Source of the DNA: Leuconostoc falkenbergense
GTDB lineage: Bacteria > Bacillota > Bacilli > Lactobacillales > Lactobacillaceae
Reading direction: 5' to 3'
DNA length: 64,000 nt
Assembly (NCBI RefSeq): GCF_014634805.1
Contig: NZ_BMBS01000001.1
Location: forward strand, 62,001-126,000
Within the stretch, counting starts at the first letter, position 1. Each line of letters opens with the position of its first letter. Made by a program: the position numbers and the translations under genes. Positions 30,874-46,229 of the stretch are shown one piece after another. The notes below the pieces were generated by a model, which did no database searches, was not told where the DNA came from, and saw only the letters and a list, made by a program, of their open reading frames with translations.

Positions 30874-31908
30874 CTATATGACTTGCTCCTCATCCCTTTC
30901 AGCTAAATGAAACACATGCCAGATAGTAATGGCAACAATCCAAGCCACAACAAACAAGCAAACCAAAATAATACCCATTTGGTTAAAATCTAACCCATTT
31001 GCCCATTTCGTTAAACCATTTTGCCAGCCAAACATGACGGCAAATGACTGAATAAAGTCCACAAACCCAATGAATCCTGCAGCTAAAATAGAAATGCCTG
31101 TAATCGTCAAATTATAATAGACTTTTCGATATGGTGACGAAAATACCCAATGATAAGTTGTACTCATAAAGAAACCGTCAACTGTATCCATCAAACACAT
31201 TCCCGCTGTAAACAGCAACGGAAAAGCCATTGTTGAATACCATGGTATACCCTCATTAGCAGCGGTAGCAGACGTTGCTAAAACCGCAATTTGCGTCGCA
31301 GTGTCAAATCCTAAACCAAACAAAAAACCAACGATTGCAACTTGCCAATTATGTTTTATCATGCCCAATAATTTCAAAAATAAACGATATATTTTGGAGG
31401 TATTAACTTGCTCATCATCCTTATCCTCTTTACCATTGTGATTGCGCATTGACGCGAATTTCACCCAAATATCATGCAAAATGAAACTATTGACAATAGC
31501 TAACATCATCAACATAGCAGCTGCAATTGAAGTCCCTAAGGCACCACCAATATGTTCAAAAACCGGCATGGCATGTTTTGCCCACTCGACAAATAGAACT
31601 GTTGCCAATGCCATCAATACCACGACCATTGAATGACCAAATGAAAAACTGAAACCGACACCGCGTGTATTTTTGCCATCATTTAGCATTTTACGTGTCA
31701 TGTTATCAATGGCAGCAATGTGATCGACATCAAATGCATGCCTTAGTCCCATGGTAAATGATAAATAAGCCATTGCTATCATTTCAGGATATTGCGACGC
31801 ACTGGTCATTAATAACATTATTCCTGCAATTAAAAAAAGGACAATTATTGCGCCATAGCGCATTGCATCTGTCTGTAACGTTGTTTGTTTTTGTGTGCGT
31901 AACATCAT
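30874..31908 (-). CDS. NiCoT family nickel/cobalt transporter (HoxN/NixA type)
   Basis: 344 residues with about eight membrane helices. The family signature in helix II, RHAFDVDHIAAIDN (H-x4-DH), is intact. The second signature FSFGHSMVVV and the later LFGLGFDTATQIA are also present. NiCoT permeases import Ni2+ or Co2+ with high affinity; which metal cannot be decided from sequence. No urease, hydrogenase or cobalamin gene is in view. The ATG has AGGAG 8 bases upstream. A leucine-rich leader peptide and an attenuator lie at 32080-32245, with a consensus promoter before them. No riboswitch for cobalamin or Ni/Co was recognised. Confidence 0.93.
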   Translation of the reverse strand: MMLRTQKQTTLQTDAMRYGAIIVLFLIAGIMLLMTSASQYPEMIAMAYLSFTMGLRHAFDVDHIAAIDNMTRKMLNDGKNTRGVGFSFSFGHSMVVVLMALATVLFVEWAKHAMPVFEHIGGALGTSIAAAMLMMLAIVNSFILHDIWVKFASMRNHNGKEDKDDEQVNTSKIYRLFLKLLGMIKHNWQVAIVGFLFGLGFDTATQIAVLATSATAANEGIPWYSTMAFPLLFTAGMCLMDTVDGFFMSTTYHWVFSSPYRKVYYNLTITGISILAAGFIGFVDFIQSFAVMFGWQNGLTKWANGLDFNQMGIILVCLFVVAWIVAITIWHVFHLAERDEEQVI

Positions 31909-32079
31909 ATTTTTTCTTCTCCTTGCACTGTAAAAATAAGATTATCATAGGGTATATCTCTGGTAAACATAGCGAACAAATGGTGTCCTTAGTAGACAAA
32001 ATATGTCCTTTTAACATGTTACTTTGACGAGAATATGATCGATAATCGCTGACTACATTTGTTGCTTTGAGTGCATCAA
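31909..32079. other. Untranslated region between attenuator and NiCoT gene
   Basis: About 170 bases between the leader terminator and the transporter start. A minus-strand reading frame through it lacks a ribosome site and coding character. TATGAT at about 31945-31950 is -10-like but has no -35 partner, so the upstream leader promoter is the best candidate for the transporter. Confidence 0.4.
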
Positions 32080-32188
32080 CACAAAAACACCCCAACTATA
32101 TTAAAGTTGGGGTGTTTTTAATGTTGTCCCAACTATCTACCAAACGATTTTTGTTTAGTAGATAGTCACTCAAAGAACCTACTAAACC
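32080..32188 (-). promoter_or_regulatory. Leader-peptide attenuator upstream of the NiCoT gene
   Basis: RNA segments read on the minus strand. A (GUUUAGUAGGU) starts 1 base after the leader-peptide stop and pairs with B (AUCUACUAAAC) over 11 bp. B within a 15-base stretch pairs alternatively with C (GUUUGGUAGAUAGUU). The end of C (AGUUGGG) pairs with CCCAACU in the 5' arm of the terminator (CACCCCAAC/GTTGGGGTG, 32114-32106 and 32096-32088, then five T). Thus A:B frees C to block the terminator; B:C allows it. Confidence 0.8.
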
Positions 32189-32245
32189 TCAATTGAGAAG
32201 TAGGTAGAGGAGAGAATGATTGACTTGCTTCATTGTTTTATGCAT
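32189..32245 (-). CDS. Leucine-rich leader peptide upstream of the NiCoT gene
   Basis: 18 codons and a TGA: MHKTMKQVNHSLLYLLLN. The 3' end reads CTC CTC TAC CTA CTT CTC, five leucine codons in six, using CTN codons rather than TTG/TTA. AGAGGT stands 6 bases before the ATG. The peptide is too short for a protein and lies between a consensus promoter and an attenuator, as expected for a regulatory leader peptide. Similar elements have been described in lactic acid bacteria as leu/phe leaders; I could not compare the sequences. Confidence 0.82.
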   Translation of the reverse strand: MHKTMKQVNHSLLYLLLN

Positions 32246-32289
32246 AATTTTACCTCTTTTTTTGTTATTTATTTAACAATATAATTAAA

Positions 32290-32318
32290 AGTATATTATT
32301 AAAATTTCATTTTGTCAA
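32290..32318 (-). promoter_or_regulatory. Promoter of the NiCoT leader transcript
   Basis: On the minus strand, TTGACA (32318-32313), a 17-bp spacer and TATACT (32295-32290). Confidence 0.85.
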
Positions 32319-32343
32319 ACGTTTAATAAATCAATATTGTTTA

Positions 32344-33333
32344 TCATTGCTTGATTCTTATATCCCCATCATCTGTTGATATGATATATTTGCCAGTTGT
32401 CCCTTTATAAGCATAAGTTGACTGATCATCCTCATGCTGATTAAAAGCCGAGATGTCGCCATCCTGCGTTTTAGCAACCACACTACTTCTACCAATAGCG
32501 ATTGCAACATCACCATCTTGTGCAGTGATGTTTAGTTCACCTGAAAGCTCATTACTTAACAAATTAATATCACCATCTGACACATTTATTTCACCAACAT
32601 TCATGTGGTTTTGATGCATGTTTAGATCACTATCTTGAAGTTGAATCGTCGTTCTATCGCTAATGTGCGTATTTTTTATAGTTACATCCCCATCATTACT
32701 TTTAATCGTAGCTGTGGACGCAGCGATGTTGTTTAAATCAGTGTCCTCAGTATCATCGAGTTTTAAGTCATGATTGACTGTCATGTCTTTTAACTTTGTA
32801 TCTGCAACATGTTGTAACGTTATTTTATCTGCTTGAATACCTGACAGACTAACATCGCTGCTATTCTGACCATTAATTTGAAGATTAGACAAATTTTGTG
32901 ATTGCGGTACTGTAATCACAATTTCTTCTTGGTATCTCTGGCTATGGCGCTGCCAAGTGAATCCAGTAATATTAAATTCAATATTAACCTCGCCTCGAGA
33001 TACACTGCTAGTCTGTTTATCAGTAATTGTTAAATGACTTTGTTGATAGTTCATTTCAGGTAACTTGTGATAAGTGAATACCTTAACAGTGGCTTGCTTA
33101 ACATCACCCGTGACAACGCGTACGGGTAAAGCTGTTGAAATATTAATGCTTTTTACATTGTCAAAAGTATATGATTTTTGCGATATTTTGCTTTTCTTTG
33201 TTTTTTGATCAATAACTTTGAAACCATTATCCCAAGTAATAGCACTAGAAGCCCCACCAAAGCAAATGCCAATTAGTGCCATTACAACACCAATAACAAC
33301 CAAAGTTAATCCAATCTTAACGCCTCGTTTCAT
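32344..33333 (-). CDS. DUF4097 family beta-repeat protein with membrane anchor
   Basis: 329 residues. A hydrophobic N-terminal helix (about 5-27) is followed by a beta-helix-like DUF4097 domain with repeating blocks such as KSNDGDVTIKNT, NVSDGDINLLSN, AQDGDVAI, TQDGDISAF and TDDGDIRIK. The repeated DGDI/V turns are the family hallmark. The function is unknown; it is usually tied to envelope stress in Firmicutes. A longer reading starts at 33369, but AGGAGG 9 bases before the ATG at 33333 sets the start. It is the last gene of padR-DUF1700-DUF4097, with 1 base between it and the DUF1700 gene. Confidence 0.85.
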   Translation of the reverse strand: MKRGVKIGLTLVVIGVVMALIGICFGGASSAITWDNGFKVIDQKTKKSKISQKSYTFDNVKSINISTALPVRVVTGDVKQATVKVFTYHKLPEMNYQQSHLTITDKQTSSVSRGEVNIEFNITGFTWQRHSQRYQEEIVITVPQSQNLSNLQINGQNSSDVSLSGIQADKITLQHVADTKLKDMTVNHDLKLDDTEDTDLNNIAASTATIKSNDGDVTIKNTHISDRTTIQLQDSDLNMHQNHMNVGEINVSDGDINLLSNELSGELNITAQDGDVAIAIGRSSVVAKTQDGDISAFNQHEDDQSTYAYKGTTGKYIISTDDGDIRIKQ

Positions 33334-33334
33334 G

Positions 33335-33940
33335 TTACCTATCCTCCTGATGTACGTGATTTTTATCAATGAAACGACGATAAATTAACTTGCTAAACTT
33401 CGCCGTTTTATTAATTAGCCACCTCAAAAGAGCAACACCAGCTGGTATGCCAGCCACCATAATTCCTAATATCGTCAACCCACAGCCAATATAATAAAGG
33501 CCCGTCCAAGTTGACTGCAGCAATACACCAACGCCACTAATAGCTGCCAACATACCTGTCAAACCAAGCGCAATTATAATCGCAATCAAAGCCGCGACAA
33601 GGGCAAAACAAACCGCAACTAGCGTAACCAAAATAATAAACACAGGTAACGCTAACGGTGACGCCAACAGTGCCAAGGCAATCCACCAAATTAGTTTAAT
33701 ATTTGACCGTGAATTTTTATTATTTGTATCATCTGCTGATTTTTCATCAGCCTTAATTGAATAATCAGCTAAAATTTTTCGTGAGAGTTGTTTTGGTGTA
33801 CCTAATTCACCTACACATGCTTCATATGTGATTAAATCTGCATCCATCAAATACTCACGATAGAAATTCAACGCTTCCTCTTTATCTGAATGGTGCAACT
33901 GGTTTAGTAATTGGTCTAATTCAGTCAAATAATTCTCCAT
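33335..33940 (-). CDS. DUF1700 family membrane protein
   Basis: 201 residues. The cytoplasmic N-terminal part (about 1-80) has the family pattern LDQLLNQLHHSDKEEALNFYREYLMDA and ELGTPKQLSRKILADY. Two or more long hydrophobic blocks (about 82-175) and a basic tail follow. DUF1700 proteins commonly sit between a PadR regulator and a DUF4097 protein, as here, and may transmit a membrane signal, but no mechanism is known. Its ribosome site lies in the 3' end of padR. Confidence 0.83.
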   Translation of the reverse strand: MENYLTELDQLLNQLHHSDKEEALNFYREYLMDADLITYEACVGELGTPKQLSRKILADYSIKADEKSADDTNNKNSRSNIKLIWWIALALLASPLALPVFIILVTLVAVCFALVAALIAIIIALGLTGMLAAISGVGVLLQSTWTGLYYIGCGLTILGIMVAGIPAGVALLRWLINKTAKFSKLIYRRFIDKNHVHQEDR

Positions 33941-33944
33941 CTGC

Positions 33945-34253
33945 TTATTTCTCCTTCAATAATGTGTTGACATTGGCTTGAAATATTAACCAATCTTGTC
34001 GAATACTAACCAGTTTGTCACGACCCTGCGCTGTAATTTGGTAGTAACGTCGATTTCTACCTTGATAAGGTTGATCATAAGTAGTCACGTATTGATTATT
34101 TTTTAATCGTCGTAACACCGGATATAGCGTTGATTCTGAAACGGAAATGGTGCCTTGTACTCTCTGTGTTAACGCATAACCGTAATAATCTTCTTTATCT
34201 AATATTGCTAACACGCAACCATCTAATAATTCTGAACTCATTTGAATTGCCAT
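33945..34253 (-). CDS. PadR family transcriptional regulator
   Basis: 102 residues. The winged helix begins with the family signature SSELLDGCVLAILDKEDYYGYAL. The recognition part STLYPVLRRLKNNQYV and the wing GRNRRYYQITAQGRDKL follow. A longer reading starts at a TTG at 34268, but GGAG 8 bases before the ATG at 34253 fixes the start. It leads a three-gene operon with DUF1700 and DUF4097 genes. A perfect 11-bp inverted repeat sits directly upstream and is a good candidate for its own operator. Confidence 0.9.
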   Translation of the reverse strand: MAIQMSSELLDGCVLAILDKEDYYGYALTQRVQGTISVSESTLYPVLRRLKNNQYVTTYDQPYQGRNRRYYQITAQGRDKLVSIRQDWLIFQANVNTLLKEK

Positions 34254-34277
34254 ACTTATTTTCTCCAATACTATACG

Positions 34278-34457: not shown

Positions 34458-35246
34458 TTAATAATAAAATCCGTGACGATAATCCCATGACGAGAAAATA
34501 TCACTCATAATTTTCATAATTTTATCGACATCTAGTCCTTTACGAATAACGATTGGTGCTGGTTGAACACCAACAGCGCCATTTTGTTCTGGGATAAGCT
34601 TACCTGCTTCGTCAACCATTGATACCATCACACCTTGTTCGTAACGTGTGTCCAGCGTCTTATCAGGTTGAATTGATGCCACATAATCATCGGCCTCAAT
34701 AATTAGGTCAGCAGCATTTTCAATTTGATCACCAATACCAGCTACTAATCCTCGGTTCCCCTTACCAGAAGGATTAGCTGAACTTGCAAATGAGAACTTG
34801 CCATACTTTTCCCACATTTCTTTGGCAATATTTTCACTTGGTGTGCCAAACTTGATAACAAAACAACTCGTTTCACGTTGATCCATCATCAAATCTTTTG
34901 TACCGTCATTTGGTATCTTGCTCTTAGCTTCTTCTTGCCATGGTAAGATGCACCCCAACAAAATGTCCTCATCCCAATGTTGTTGATACATTTGTTCGAT
35001 TTCAGGTGTCATCTGCGCTAATTCTTTAACTTGTTCTACTGAACCACATAATACGACACCTGGCTTGTTACGCTTACGATTTTTAGCAGCAAACTTTCTT
35101 TCTAATCCTTTATCGTCTGAAGTCATGATAATATAACCCACCTTTGTTGGGCTAACAATCATTCCGCCATCTTCTTTCAAGATATTAATGGCTTCAGCTT
35201 GAACGCCACCATTCCAATGAATCTTTGCTGTTGTTGCTTCTGTCAT
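34458..35246 (-). CDS. Sua5/YciO/YrdC domain protein
   Basis: 262 residues. Elements of the YrdC fold are seen in order: GGMIVSPTKVGYIIM (the substrate-binding P-T-x-x-x-Y region), AAKNRKRNKPGVVLC (the K-R...P motif) and SFASSANPSGKGNR (the S-x-N-x-S-G motif). The family makes threonylcarbamoyl-adenylate for the t6A tRNA modification, or binds nucleotides/RNA. The long insertions and the location behind leuD rather than near prfA/glyA suggest a divergent paralogue rather than the housekeeping TsaC. A gap of 61 bp with a small hairpin separates it from leuD, so it can be read with the leu operon. Confidence 0.78.
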   Translation of the reverse strand: MTEATTAKIHWNGGVQAEAINILKEDGGMIVSPTKVGYIIMTSDDKGLERKFAAKNRKRNKPGVVLCGSVEQVKELAQMTPEIEQMYQQHWDEDILLGCILPWQEEAKSKIPNDGTKDLMMDQRETSCFVIKFGTPSENIAKEMWEKYGKFSFASSANPSGKGNRGLVAGIGDQIENAADLIIEADDYVASIQPDKTLDTRYEQGVMVSMVDEAGKLIPEQNGAVGVQPAPIVIRKGLDVDKIMKIMSDIFSSWDYRHGFYY

Positions 35247-35307: not shown

Positions 35308-35892
35308 TTATCCGAAATTTGGTCGCTGCTTTTCGAATTCAGCGATCAATTTTTCATATTTCATCGTGTTATCAATATCGTCTTCACCATTGATAAACTT
35401 TTCTTTCCATTGTGAGTTGATGTCAAAGTGGAAAATATTATTTTTATAAGTCACAGTTTGTTCGGGTAAATCAATTTGAATAGTTTCATCTGCTTGAATG
35501 CCTCGCAATATTTTCCGATTTTCTTCAGGCAGCACAATTGGTAGCAAGCCATTCTTGGTTGAATTCATGTAAAAAATGTCTGAAAATCCGCCGCCAATTA
35601 CTGCTCTAAATCCATAATCCGTTAGCGCCCATACCGCATGTTCTCGTGATGATCCTGATCCAAAATCATTGCCTGTAATTAAAATTGAAGCATCCTTATG
35701 TTCTGGTTTGTTTAGCTCAAACGCCTCATTTAACGAGCCGTCGGTATTGTAACGCCAGTCATAAAATAAATCTTTCCCAAACCCGGTTTTTAAAATATTT
35801 TTCAAAAATTGTTTAGGCAAGATAATATCAGTATTAATGTTGTCATTTGGAATTACAACTGCTCTGCCTGTCTCGCTTACAAAAGCTTCCAT
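35308..35892 (-). CDS. leuD: 3-isopropylmalate dehydratase small subunit
   Basis: 194 residues, normal for LeuD. The conserved swivel-domain motif [17 protein letters not shown] holds the active-site serine and arginine. It forms a heterodimer with LeuC and isomerises 2- to 3-isopropylmalate. It follows leuC by 9 bp. It is the last core gene of leuABCD. Confidence 0.95.
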
Positions 35893-35901
35893 GTTATCCC
35901 C

Positions 35902-37278
35902 CTATACAAATTCATCTGTCGTAATATCAACAAAGTGACCAGCGATTCCTGCCGCAGCAACCATAGCTGGAGAAGCCAAATGCGTTCTTGATCCTGCACC
36001 TTGGCGTCCAATAAAGTTTCTATTTGATGTTGACGCAACATGCTTGCCTGCTGGAATTTTGTCAGGATTCATTGCCAAACATGCTGAACATCCTGGCTCA
36101 CGCCATTCACAACCAGCATCTTCAAAAATTTGAGCAATTCCCGATTTGATTGCACAATTTCGAATGACCCGACTACCTGGCACGATCCACGCAGTGACGT
36201 TGGGCGCTAAATGATGACCTTTCATCATATTTGCAGCAATTTCAAGATCTTCGTAACGGCTGTTCGTGCATGAACCAATGAAAATGTAATCCAAATTAAT
36301 ATCAACTGGCTTCATATTGGGGTGTAAACCAATATATTCATAGGCATTAGCATCATTTTCATCTTTAATTTCTGGCAAATACTGATCAACAGGTGTTGCC
36401 ATTCCTGGATTTGTTCCCCATGTCACCATCGGTTTCAAATTTGATACATCAAAGGTCAGTATCTTATCAAAATCACTTTCATCATCTGTATAGAATTGTG
36501 ACCAATAGTTTTTAGCAGATTCAAAATCTTTTGGTGCTTGTTCACGGCCTTCAATATAGTCAAACGTCGTTTGATCTGGTTGTACCATACCAGTTCTTGA
36601 ACCAGCTTCAATTGACATATTACACATCGTCATACGTGCTTCCATTGAAAGATTTTGAACAGTTTCTCCATAAAATTCAATCGCATAGCCGACACCAAAT
36701 GACACCCCATATTTAGCAATGATGCCCATGATAATATCTTTGGCATACGTATTTTTAGGCAGCTTCCCAGTAACCTTAATCCCCATGGTTTTTGGTTTCA
36801 CCTGCCAAATTGTTTGGGTCGCTAGCACGTGCTCAACTTCGGAAGTACCAATTCCAAAGGCAATTGCGCCAAATGCACCATGAGTTGCTGTATGAGAATC
36901 ACCACATACGATTACTTTTGCAGGCTGTGTTAGACCGCGTTCGGGTCCCACAACATGCACAATGCCTTGTTTGTCATCACCAATCGATGCTAATGGTATG
37001 TTAAATTCCTTCGTGTTTTTGACCAATGTATCCATCTGTAATCGGGACATTTGATCTTGCACATTAAATATATCTTTCGTTGGTACGTTATGATCCATTG
37101 TTGCAAAAGTTAAATCTGGTCGTCTAACACGGCGGTTCGTGCTTCTCAACCCATCAAAAGGTTGAGGCGAGGTCACCTCATGTACCAAATGCAAATCCAC
37201 ATAAATCAGTTGAGCCTCACCAACTTCTCCAGCAATGACGTGTTTTTCCCAAATTTTGTCAAATAGTGTTTTGCTCAT
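35902..37278 (-). CDS. leuC: 3-isopropylmalate dehydratase large subunit
   Basis: 458 residues. The three [4Fe-4S] cysteines are in FIGSCTNSR and [13 protein letters not shown]. Other aconitase-family motifs are [25 protein letters not shown] and [18 protein letters not shown]. It needs an iron-sulfur cluster, which links it to the suf operon 3 kb upstream. It overlaps leuB by 4 bases. Confidence 0.96.
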
Positions 37279-38348
37279 TTTATATCCGCCGATTCATAAT
37301 TTTTTATGTAATCAACCATTTTTTGTGTGACTTCATCGGTCGTCATCGTGCCACCCATATCTGGTGTCACATAGTGGTTTTCAATAATGTAGTCTACTGC
37401 TGCAGTAATTTTATTGGCAATCTTTTTTTCATCAAAGCTTTCTGATAACATCATCGCTACCGTATTCACCATAGAAATGGGATTAGCTATACCTTGACCA
37501 GCAATATCAGGTGCTGAACCGTGAATTGGTTCATACAAATTAGGACCACTTTCACCAACTGACATAGAAGGTATTTGTCCAATTGAGCCTGTAATTTGTG
37601 CTGCTTCATCACTTAAAATGTCCCCAAACAAATTAGGTATAATCACAACATCAAATATTGTTGGTTTTGACATAATAGCCATTGTCATCGCGTCAACATA
37701 GTAATAGTCGATTGTCACATCCGGATAACTTTTGCCAACTTCATTCGCAATTTTTCGCCAAAACTTTGATGTAGCCAATACATTTGACTTATCAACAATC
37801 GTGATATGCTTGTTTCGCTTTTGAGCCATTTTAAAACCTTGATGCATAATGCGAGTGACTTCTGCTTCGCTGTAATACATCGTATCAATGGCTTGATGCG
37901 CTTCCAGCTTGCGTGGCTTTCCAAAGTAAGCACCAGAGGTCAGTTCACGAACGATAACAAAGTCCGTATTTTCAACATACTCTGGCTTCAATGGTGAGCG
38001 GTCAATTTGCGCTTGAGTCACTTTTGTTGGCCGTATATTAGCAAATAAATTAAGTTTTGATCTAATTTCTAATAGTCCTTGTTCTGGACGTCGTGGCGCA
38101 TTATCCCATTTCGGTCCACCAATTGCACTAAGTAGCACCGCATCAGCTTGTTTTGAAACATCAATCGTTGCCTGTGGTAAAGGGTCACCAGCTCGATCAA
38201 TACCATCACCACCAAAAGGTGCATCTATCAATTCATAAGCAAATGTTGTATCTTTTGTCGCAGCATCTAATACTGCCAACCCTGCTGTCATAATTTCTGG
38301 ACCAATATAATCGCCTTTTAAAACTACTATTTTTTTAATGGATGTCAT
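37275..38348 (-). CDS. leuB: 3-isopropylmalate dehydrogenase
   Basis: 357 residues. The decarboxylating dehydrogenase fold has [23 protein letters not shown], the substrate arginines and [14 protein letters not shown]. The NAD/metal region is [20 protein letters not shown] followed by [14 protein letters not shown]. It oxidises and decarboxylates 3-isopropylmalate to 2-ketoisocaproate. It starts 1 base after leuA ends and overlaps leuC by 4. Confidence 0.96.
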
Positions 38349-38349
38349 A

Positions 38350-39522
38350 TTATTGATAACTCACCATTTCTTTTTCTTCAACGACTTGCATAATAACCTT
38401 TAATTGCTCGTCTGTAATCAAGTCAGACTCTTCAGCAACTGATTTAAAAATAGGGAAAATTACTTTCATATCATCACGCGTCACATCATAACCTAAACTA
38501 TTTAGTTTTGACATTACCGCATGCGACCCCGACAATTTACCCAGAGGTAAGGATGCCGTAGCACCAACCATTTCTGGCTTCAAAATTTCATACGTTTCTG
38601 GATTTTTTAAGTACCCATCTTGATGAATACCTGACTCATGGGCAAAGGCATTGCGTCCCATAATTGGTTTATTACCCGCAACTGGCATGCAGGTTGCGCG
38701 TGCGACAACGTCAGAAATGACTTTGGACTGAGCTAAGACAATATCTGTTTCAACATTGAACTTTTCATGACGCACTTGAATCGCTGCGGCGGCTTCAATC
38801 ATGTCAACATTTCCAGCGCGTTCACCAATACCATTAATTGTGCCCTGAATTTCCGTCGCCCCATGCGCAATGCCTGCCAAAGCATTAGCTGTTGCCATTC
38901 CCAAATCATTATGCGTATGAGTTGACCAACCAACTGTGTCAAAACCAATAATATTTTGACGCAAGTTTTCAAAAACTTCACCGTATTCTTCTGGCGTATC
39001 ATAACCAACTGTGTCTGGTATGTTAATCATTGTTGCTCCGGCGTCAATGGCTGTTTGCACGCTGGCTACCAAAAAATCAGGTTCAGTTCTCGTCGCGTCT
39101 TCAGGTGAAAACACAATATCTTGCATATATTGCTTAGTAAAAGTAACGTCTGCTTTGATTTTGTCCAATATTTCTTCTTTAGTCATGTGCAATTTGAACT
39201 CACGATGAATGGGTGAAGTGGCAATGAACGCGTGAATCATTGGATGTTTTGCATTCTTAGTTGCCTCAATAACGGCATTAATGTCATTTCTGACCATTCG
39301 TGCCAAACCGACAACTTTTGCGTTAGTCACAACTTCTGCAATTCTTTTCACTTCCTCAAAGTCTTTCTGAGAAGCCGCAGGAAATCCTGCTTCAATGGCC
39401 GCAACGCCATAATTATCCAGTTCTTTTGCTATTTCAATCTTTTCGTCAATTGAAAAGTTAACCCCAATTGTTTGTTCACCATCACGCATTGTTGTGTCAT
39501 AAAAAGTTACTTTGCTTACCAT
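38350..39522 (-). CDS. leuA: 2-isopropylmalate synthase, short form without the C-terminal regulatory domain
   Basis: 390 residues. The DRE-TIM barrel has FYDTTMRDGEQTIGVNF, the second signature GWSTHTHNDLGMATANALAGI and the H-x-S-G-I-H-Q region (AFAHESGIHQDGYLKN). The protein ends shortly after the linker subdomains. The family's roughly 110-residue leucine-binding LeuA-dimer domain is absent, with a clean stop and leuB 1 base later. Allosteric leucine feedback should therefore be weak or missing, leaving control to the leader-peptide attenuator upstream. A related enzyme (homocitrate synthase-like) is possible, but leuBCD context supports LeuA. AAGGAG precedes the ATG. Confidence 0.93.
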   Translation of the reverse strand: MVSKVTFYDTTMRDGEQTIGVNFSIDEKIEIAKELDNYGVAAIEAGFPAASQKDFEEVKRIAEVVTNAKVVGLARMVRNDINAVIEATKNAKHPMIHAFIATSPIHREFKLHMTKEEILDKIKADVTFTKQYMQDIVFSPEDATRTEPDFLVASVQTAIDAGATMINIPDTVGYDTPEEYGEVFENLRQNIIGFDTVGWSTHTHNDLGMATANALAGIAHGATEIQGTINGIGERAGNVDMIEAAAAIQVRHEKFNVETDIVLAQSKVISDVVARATCMPVAGNKPIMGRNAFAHESGIHQDGYLKNPETYEILKPEMVGATASLPLGKLSGSHAVMSKLNSLGYDVTRDDMKVIFPIFKSVAEESDLITDEQLKVIMQVVEEKEMVSYQ

Positions 39523-39535
39523 AATTTTCTCCTTA

Positions 39536-39576
39536 AATTAAAATCCCGGATTAGTCAATATGACTAGTCCGGGATT
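39536..39576 (-). terminator. Attenuator terminator of the leu operon
   Basis: Minus strand: AATCCCGGACTAGTCA pairs with TGACTAATCCGGGATT around a 3-base loop, followed by TTTTAATTT, directly before leuA. Upstream UGGCUAGU can pair with ACUAGUCA of its 5' arm over 8 bp, giving an antiterminator. Confidence 0.85.
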
Positions 39577-39646
39577 ATGCACTCACATCCTTTTATTCAC
39601 TAGCCATTAGATAAATAACTAACAACTAGCTCAAAAGCTCAACTTG

Positions 39647-39721
39647 TTAGGGTAGTCTAAGCAAGTTGAGGAGAAGGGCTGCGTTTGTTTTGTTAATTTG
39701 TACTGTGGCCTGATTTCTCAT
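39647..39721 (-). CDS. leu operon leader peptide
   Basis: 24 codons and a TAA: MRNQATVQINKTNAALLLNLLRLP. Six of the last nine codons are leucine (CTT CTC CTC AAC TTG CTT AGA CTA CCC). AAGGAAG precedes the ATG at 8 bases. The leucine codons form the 5' arm of a 9-bp hairpin (CTCAACTTG/CAAGTTGAG). With the terminator before leuA this is classical leucine attenuation, as reported for the lactococcal leu-ilv operon. Confidence 0.9.
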   Translation of the reverse strand: MRNQATVQINKTNAALLLNLLRLP

Positions 39722-46042: not shown

Positions 46043-46060
46043 ATTTCTCCAAAATCCTAC

Positions 46061-46169
46061 AAAAAAGCACCTAACTGTCAAAACAGTTAGGTGCTTAATC
46101 CGATATCCCAACCGTCTACTCTATTTCTGAAAGAAAATAGTAGACGATTAACACAAAATAGCCTACTAG
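46061..46169 (-). promoter_or_regulatory. Leader-peptide attenuator upstream of the suf operon
   Basis: RNA segments on the minus strand. A (UAGUAGGC) directly after the leader-peptide stop pairs with B (GUCUACUA) over 8 bp. B in AAUCGUCUACU pairs alternatively with C (AGUAGACGGUU) over 11 bp. The end of C (CGGUUGGG) pairs with CCUAACUG, the 5' arm of the terminator (AAGCACCTAACTG/CAGTTAGGTGCTT, 46096-46084 and 46077-46065, then T-run). The design matches the attenuator before the NiCoT gene, although the terminators differ in sequence. Confidence 0.8.
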
Positions 46170-46229
46170 TCACATGAGGACAAGGAGTGCAAAAAATGTG
46201 TTGTTCAATTGTGTTGTTATCTTATTCAT
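46170..46229 (-). CDS. Leader peptide upstream of the suf operon
   Basis: 19 codons and a TGA: MNKITTQLNNTFFALLVLM. The 3' end reads TTT TTT GCA CTC CTT GTC CTC ATG, with three CTN leucine and two phenylalanine codons. The predicted transcription start is only about 7 bases before the ATG and no ribosome site is seen, so it may be translated as a near-leaderless mRNA. Its position between a consensus promoter and an attenuator supports a regulatory peptide. Confidence 0.72.
   Translation of the reverse strand: MNKITTQLNNTFFALLVLM

Follow-up and report, generated by a model that had tools for sequence, protein, structure and literature searches.

The nicO gene of Leuconostoc falkenbergense, which encodes a NicO/NiCoT-family transporter, lies behind a leader that we read, at a probability of roughly 80%, as a ribosome-mediated transcription attenuator: it would sense charged tRNA-Leu and control the distal (leader) nicO transcript. 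To judge from the sequence, this would be a known mechanism with an unexpected target, a NiCoT-family gene, and with good comparative support. The window, the stretch of 64,000 nucleotides analyzed here, carries on its minus strand, in this order, HTH-sufCDSUB, FeS_assembly_P (DUF59-type), leuABCD (35308..39522; called from ORFs and syntenic in relatives), a yrdC/sua5-like gene (34458..35246; identified by domain search and synteny), a padR-HAAS-DUF4097 cassette (32344-34268), the leader, and nicO (30874..31908; 344 aa). All features described below are on that strand.

Anatomy of the nicO leader

Transcription of the leader would start at a sigma-70-type promoter, TTGACA-17-TATACT (32290..32318; 11/12 in a consensus scan), in which the -35 hexamer (32318-32313) and the -10 hexamer (32295-32290) are separated by 17 nt; it is the top-scoring site within 31000-33000, and similar promoter sequences stand upstream of the leader in most other leader-bearing species. 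An SD-like AGAGGT (32252..32257), whose GAGG is kept in the species with an LLYLLL peptide, precedes an 18-codon ORF (MHKTMKQVNHSLLYLLLN, 32189..32245; ATG at 32245, TGA at 32191-32189), and an intrinsic terminator of -22.7 kcal/mol follows (32080..32117; 5' arm T5 AAACACCCCAACT, 3' arm T3 AGTTGGGGTGTTT, and a U tract), leaving about 170 bases to the nicO ATG at 31908. The initial annotation, made from the letters of the same DNA, had already named this promoter, the ribosome site, the 18-codon ORF with five CTN leucine codons in six near its end, the strong terminator, and the 170-base gap; all are borne out, the codon cluster being CTC CTC TAC CTA CTT CTC. Its five-out-of-five use of CTN is unusual (~0.002 if codons are independent) because only 29% of leucine codons in the long genes of the window are CTN (CTC, 3.9%).

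With an SD, an ATG, clustered Leu codons, and an intrinsic terminator ahead of a gene, the region has the makeup of a leader-peptide attenuator. It folds at -65.2 kcal/mol, compared to -34.9 +/- 4.5 for shuffled sequences (z = -6.7). When the window was scanned for an SD, an ATG, and a short ORF in which five or more of seven codons are Leu, followed by a terminator, exactly two sites were found: the nicO leader and a leader of leuA. An Rfam search at the gathering threshold matched no family, neither a riboswitch nor a T-box, and matches at permissive thresholds were chance-like.

A relay of competing helices

How would a ribosome on an 18-codon ORF reach the terminator? Five mutually exclusive helices, in chain order A:B, B:C, C:D, D:T5, and T5:T3, link the codon region to it. 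Segment B (GGTTTAGTAGG, 32178..32188) can form a helix with either the leader codons (A) or C; segment C (GACTATCTACTAAAC, 32153..32167) pairs with B or D; and segment D (GTTTGGTAGATAGTTGGG, 32128..32145), the predicted antiterminator, has C as one partner and, via AGTTGGG, the terminator 5' arm as the other. The three pairings of the initial annotation, which it called A:B (11 bp), B:C (15 bp), and C:terminator arm, exist and are renamed here B:C, C:D, and D:T5; the helix it missed is the first one, in which the Leu codons and stop (A) pair with B (8 pairs in the fold), and it is this helix that connects the ribosome to the RNA switch.

The model has three branches. When leucine is plentiful, a ribosome at the stop codon would cover B and C:D would form; D could then not hold the terminator 5' arm and transcription would end. 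When leucine is short, the ribosome would stall on the clustered CTN codons, leaving B free to pair with C first; D would be released, and its AGUUGGG would pair with the loop-side half of the terminator 5' arm, just where the hairpin would begin, allowing readthrough into nicO. Without translation, A:B would form, followed by C:D, and transcription would again end.

Covariation supports the middle of this chain: double changes in C:D preserve pairing at one position as G-C (16), A-T (7), or T-A (14) and at another as A-T (18) or G-C (15). The D:T5 pairing is present, in different letters, in all three classes of leaders found in the genus (nicO, suf, and liv; see below): AGTTGGG/CCCAACT, ACAGTTGGG/CCTAACTGT, and GGTTAGGA/TCCTAACG. 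Compared to shuffles, D:T5 is no better in several liv leaders, nor in the nicO leader of L. carnosum.

Predicted energies, computed as minimum-energy terms on RNA folded before the terminator 3' arm exists, favor C:D when a ribosome occupies the stop codon, by medians of 11 (nicO), 7 (suf), and 14 (liv) kcal/mol; once B is free, the median gap between the two routes is just 4.0, 0.2, and 1.4 kcal/mol, respectively, on the same terms. In nicO leaders with B free, the C:D route keeps an advantage of 1-6 kcal/mol over B:C plus D:T5, and the full-length minimum-energy structure contains the terminator in every case. Antitermination must therefore be kinetic, depending on the order and speed of folding.

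Orthologous leaders and a probable second promoter

The initial annotation had suggested a search for the same leader before NiCoT genes of relatives and had held that relatives with the leader in front of some other gene would speak against leucine control of the transporter. Among 19 genomes of the genus, 17 have nicO. An intact leader precedes it in seven Leuconostoc species (the window species, L. pseudomesenteroides, L. litchii, L. carnosum, and three further species), and an eighth has a decayed copy; every orthologous leader precedes nicO. LLYLLL with CTN codons is kept in six species, and L. carnosum has an Ile/Leu version, EIIRLILLN. The window genome is a close relative of L. pseudomesenteroides, their nicO genes being 93-94% identical. 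The leader-bearing species are so placed on the nicO tree that at least two changes are needed: either two gains of the leader or losses in other lineages.

The decayed copy is that of L. miyukkimchii: the ATG and most Leu codons of the nicO leader beside leu are gone, and the pairing between codons and B is gone too (A:B z = -0.5). At a distance of 96 kb, the same genome carries another nicO, whose leader is intact and of the suf type (G014:C4:64853-66365; L056, L117).

Gene order suggests where the leader came from. In Leuconostoc as in related genera, nicO keeps synteny with suf-leuABCD-yrdC, and yrdC is the ancestral neighbor between leuD and nicO. In five leaderless species, nicO follows yrdC by ~25-45 nt in an uninterrupted leuABCD-(MFS)-yrdC-nicO array, apparently as a member of the leucine operon; related genera (g7, g39, and one g2 genome) have this array too. 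The leader of L. pseudomesenteroides comes directly after yrdC; the padR-HAAS-DUF4097 cassette separates the two in the window and in four other species and is absent from the other species examined. (Several species have an MFS transporter-like gene between leuD and yrdC, e.g., L053:6378-7696; the window species has none there.) The simplest history would be that nicO was ancestrally expressed with the leu operon and that, after separation, a copy of a neighboring leader restored leucine control; the leader seems to preserve this control where nicO turned into a separate unit. An RNA switch would then have been gained upon a gene's separation from its operon, with L. miyukkimchii showing both a decayed and a re-acquired leader.

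If the leader controls nicO, what is the conserved DNA behind the terminator for? A tandem operator-like repeat, AAGGACANNNTTTGTNC, with a 20-bp period (31974..32010) is followed by a candidate promoter, GTTTAC-16-GATAAT (31941..31968), with a -10-like TGATAATCT that is invariant in 12 aligned upstream regions. In an 11-genome alignment all share AAGGACANNNTTTGTNC or close variants twice, four of these genomes having no nicO leader; a genus scan places the exact tandem pair upstream of nicO only, and species of the gelidum group have the promoter-like element while lacking the leader. The alignment reveals no conservation in the spacer upstream of the repeats; a hidden gene in the 170-nt gap (ORFs of 89 and 103 aa) was rejected on that ground. 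The element is probably a second, activator- or repressor-controlled promoter, a differently regulated input, and the leader transcript is therefore probably not the sole source of nicO mRNA.

The initial annotation had asked whether a promoter in 31909-32079 supplies all transporter mRNA. A conserved promoter-like element is indeed there, at 31941-32010. That the proximal promoter, under a regulator of the AAGGACA repeats, accounts for most or all functional nicO mRNA, leaving the leader as a duplicated leucine attenuator of little effect, is unlikely, even though the element persists in genomes devoid of a nicO leader and one leader copy, in L. miyukkimchii, has decayed. Six leaders retain LLYLLL and the relay while the adjacent spacer drifts; in L. 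carnosum the leader and terminator lie ~80 nt from nicO and the repeats are absent; and ancestral nicO sat in or behind the leu operon. We thus retain leucine attenuation of the leader transcript, with the second promoter as a probable additional input.

Sister leaders, the transporter, and known systems

A covariance model built from 11 leaders and searched across the genus recovers three leader classes, named for the genes behind them: nicO, HTH-suf, and PTS_EIIC_2/liv. Before HTH-sufCDSUB, the window has a paralogous suf-class leader (MNKITTQLNNTFFALLVLM, 46055..46228) that shares the relay and the terminator. Peptides of the HTH-suf leaders are rich in Leu/Ile/Val/Phe; the sisters that the window suf leader has in relatives encode peptides rich in Ile and Leu. 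Control of Fe-S assembly by an amino acid attenuator would deserve notice on its own. The third class, with the peptide LLLNLLLI, occurs in every genome of the genus and is followed, where examined, by a PTS_EIIC_2 gene (L141:2296-3660, L145, L146), behind which L. citreum and one further genome (G010) have branched-chain amino acid ABC transporter genes. Paralogous leaders thus do precede other genes, and genes for Fe-S assembly and branched-chain amino acid transport are consistent with the leucine reading. The leuA leader (MRNQATVQINKTNAALLLNLLRLP, 39540..39721), which has its own terminator and serves as an internal control, gave no match to this covariance model and is of a separate family; leuA has its own Leu leader in 15/15 Leuconostoc leu loci sampled. 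Leader-peptide control of leucine-related genes thus looks routine in these genomes, the nicO leader being one application.

The Ile, Val, and Phe codons of suf leaders, and the mixture of Ile and Leu codons in L. carnosum, could suggest a leader that senses branched-chain or global starvation more generally, or one that acts by translation coupling or as a small RNA, with no leucine-specific terminator switch. This is quite improbable: six nicO leaders cluster five Leu codons with one Tyr codon, ~170 nt separate the terminator from nicO, and the relay leads up to the terminator arm. As for a Leu-rich ORF that fell by chance beside an unrelated terminator, short ORFs of this kind are common in arbitrary frames, several of them upstream of other nicO genes, but 0 sites in 30 shuffled windows satisfy the full definition and the leader is conserved in seven species and matched by two covarying paralogous families, so that coincidence can safely be set aside. 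A leucine-responsive terminator switch remains our reading, and the genus-wide leader set (leuA, HTH-suf, PTS_EIIC_2/liv, and nicO) places the transporter in a leucine/branched-chain starvation response, in which leucine shortage probably switches it on together with the adjoining leucine and iron-sulfur genes.

The initial annotation had proposed leucine attenuation of metal import. The first half stands, with a Leu-codon leader, alternative folds, conservation before orthologous transporters, and covarying helices; the second was put too firmly: the substrate is a prediction, and nicO mRNA probably does not stem from the attenuated transcript alone. The protein belongs to the NicO/NiCoT family by domain (PF03824, E 6.9e-82, 275 bits), with Ni2+/Co2+ as the predicted substrate, and stays below the equivalog/subfamily cut-offs of NCBIfam (TIGR00802, 293 bits against 333; NF052500, 298 against 450). 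A phmmer search of the PDB returned no Ni/Co transporter; its single, weak match (E 0.0011) was a lipid-export protein. In an earlier survey, Lactobacillales NiCoTs stayed unassigned (PMC2667541).

Which pathway would the metal serve? Neither lactate racemase, nor a B12-binding protein, nor urease was found in the 19 genomes of the genus, in searches whose controls were positive elsewhere. LeuA and LeuB need metal, and LeuC has an Fe-S cluster, for which SUF would be the supply; a link between nicO and leucine synthesis by either path is plausible. We offer as a tentative idea, more doubtful than the attenuator itself, that the transporter works for leucine biosynthesis or for the Fe-S supply of that pathway, bringing metal for LeuA/LeuB or for SUF/LeuC, and that uncharged tRNA-Leu raises import along with leuABCD and suf. 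If true, this would give a Ni/Co-type transporter a physiological role where its usual partners were not found. Co-occurrence of nicO and leuC (17 genomes with both, two with neither) was rejected as proof of a functional link: both genomes lacking them also gave no SufB match, so the absence may be one block loss. Relatives without leu, such as Fructobacillus pseudoficulneus, retain nicO beside suf, and its partner may therefore be Fe-S assembly rather than the leucine enzymes. In genus g29 (L077, L078), nicO lies ~3 kb from a divergent suf operon and no leuC was seen in either genome, an arrangement that hints at a suf rather than a leu link. One nicO, 65% identical (G035), has neither context.

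Attenuators of the nicO type would offer a testable function for the orphan NiCoT of lactic acid bacteria. With paralogous copies apparently distributed to an Fe-S assembly operon and a metal transporter, tRNA charging alone would couple the supply of metal to starvation for amino acids. A search of open-licence papers returned nothing relevant on a leucine-controlled Ni/Co transporter or on attenuation in Leuconostoc.

Leader-peptide attenuators are textbook devices of amino acid operons, and B12 and NiCo riboswitches are established regulators of Ni/Co uptake genes. Genes under either riboswitch or under NikR resemble nicO in that a Ni/Co-type transporter is regulated; for nicO, however, the signal would be an amino acid, and no Rfam riboswitch was found. 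NikR control of Ni/Co uptake genes is described in PMC2667541. Closer in mechanism is the leuA leader of the same genome, likewise a Leu-codon leader with a terminator, although of a separate family. The ilv-leu operon of S. aureus has a Leu-rich attenuator peptide (PMC5794164), and the likeness extends to a short Leu-rich ORF, a downstream terminator, a predicted antiterminator, and read-through when Leu is scarce; the S. aureus leader, however, encodes an unrelated peptide and controls biosynthetic genes rather than a metal transporter, and the parts of that paper considered here describe no four-segment relay. Branched-chain leader attenuators predicted in Lactococcus and Streptococcus (cited in PMC5794164) share the sensing principle and are likewise from lactic acid bacteria, but they precede branched-chain synthesis genes, whereas in Leuconostoc the leader stands before a NiCoT gene and its paralogs before suf and PTS_EIIC_2/liv.
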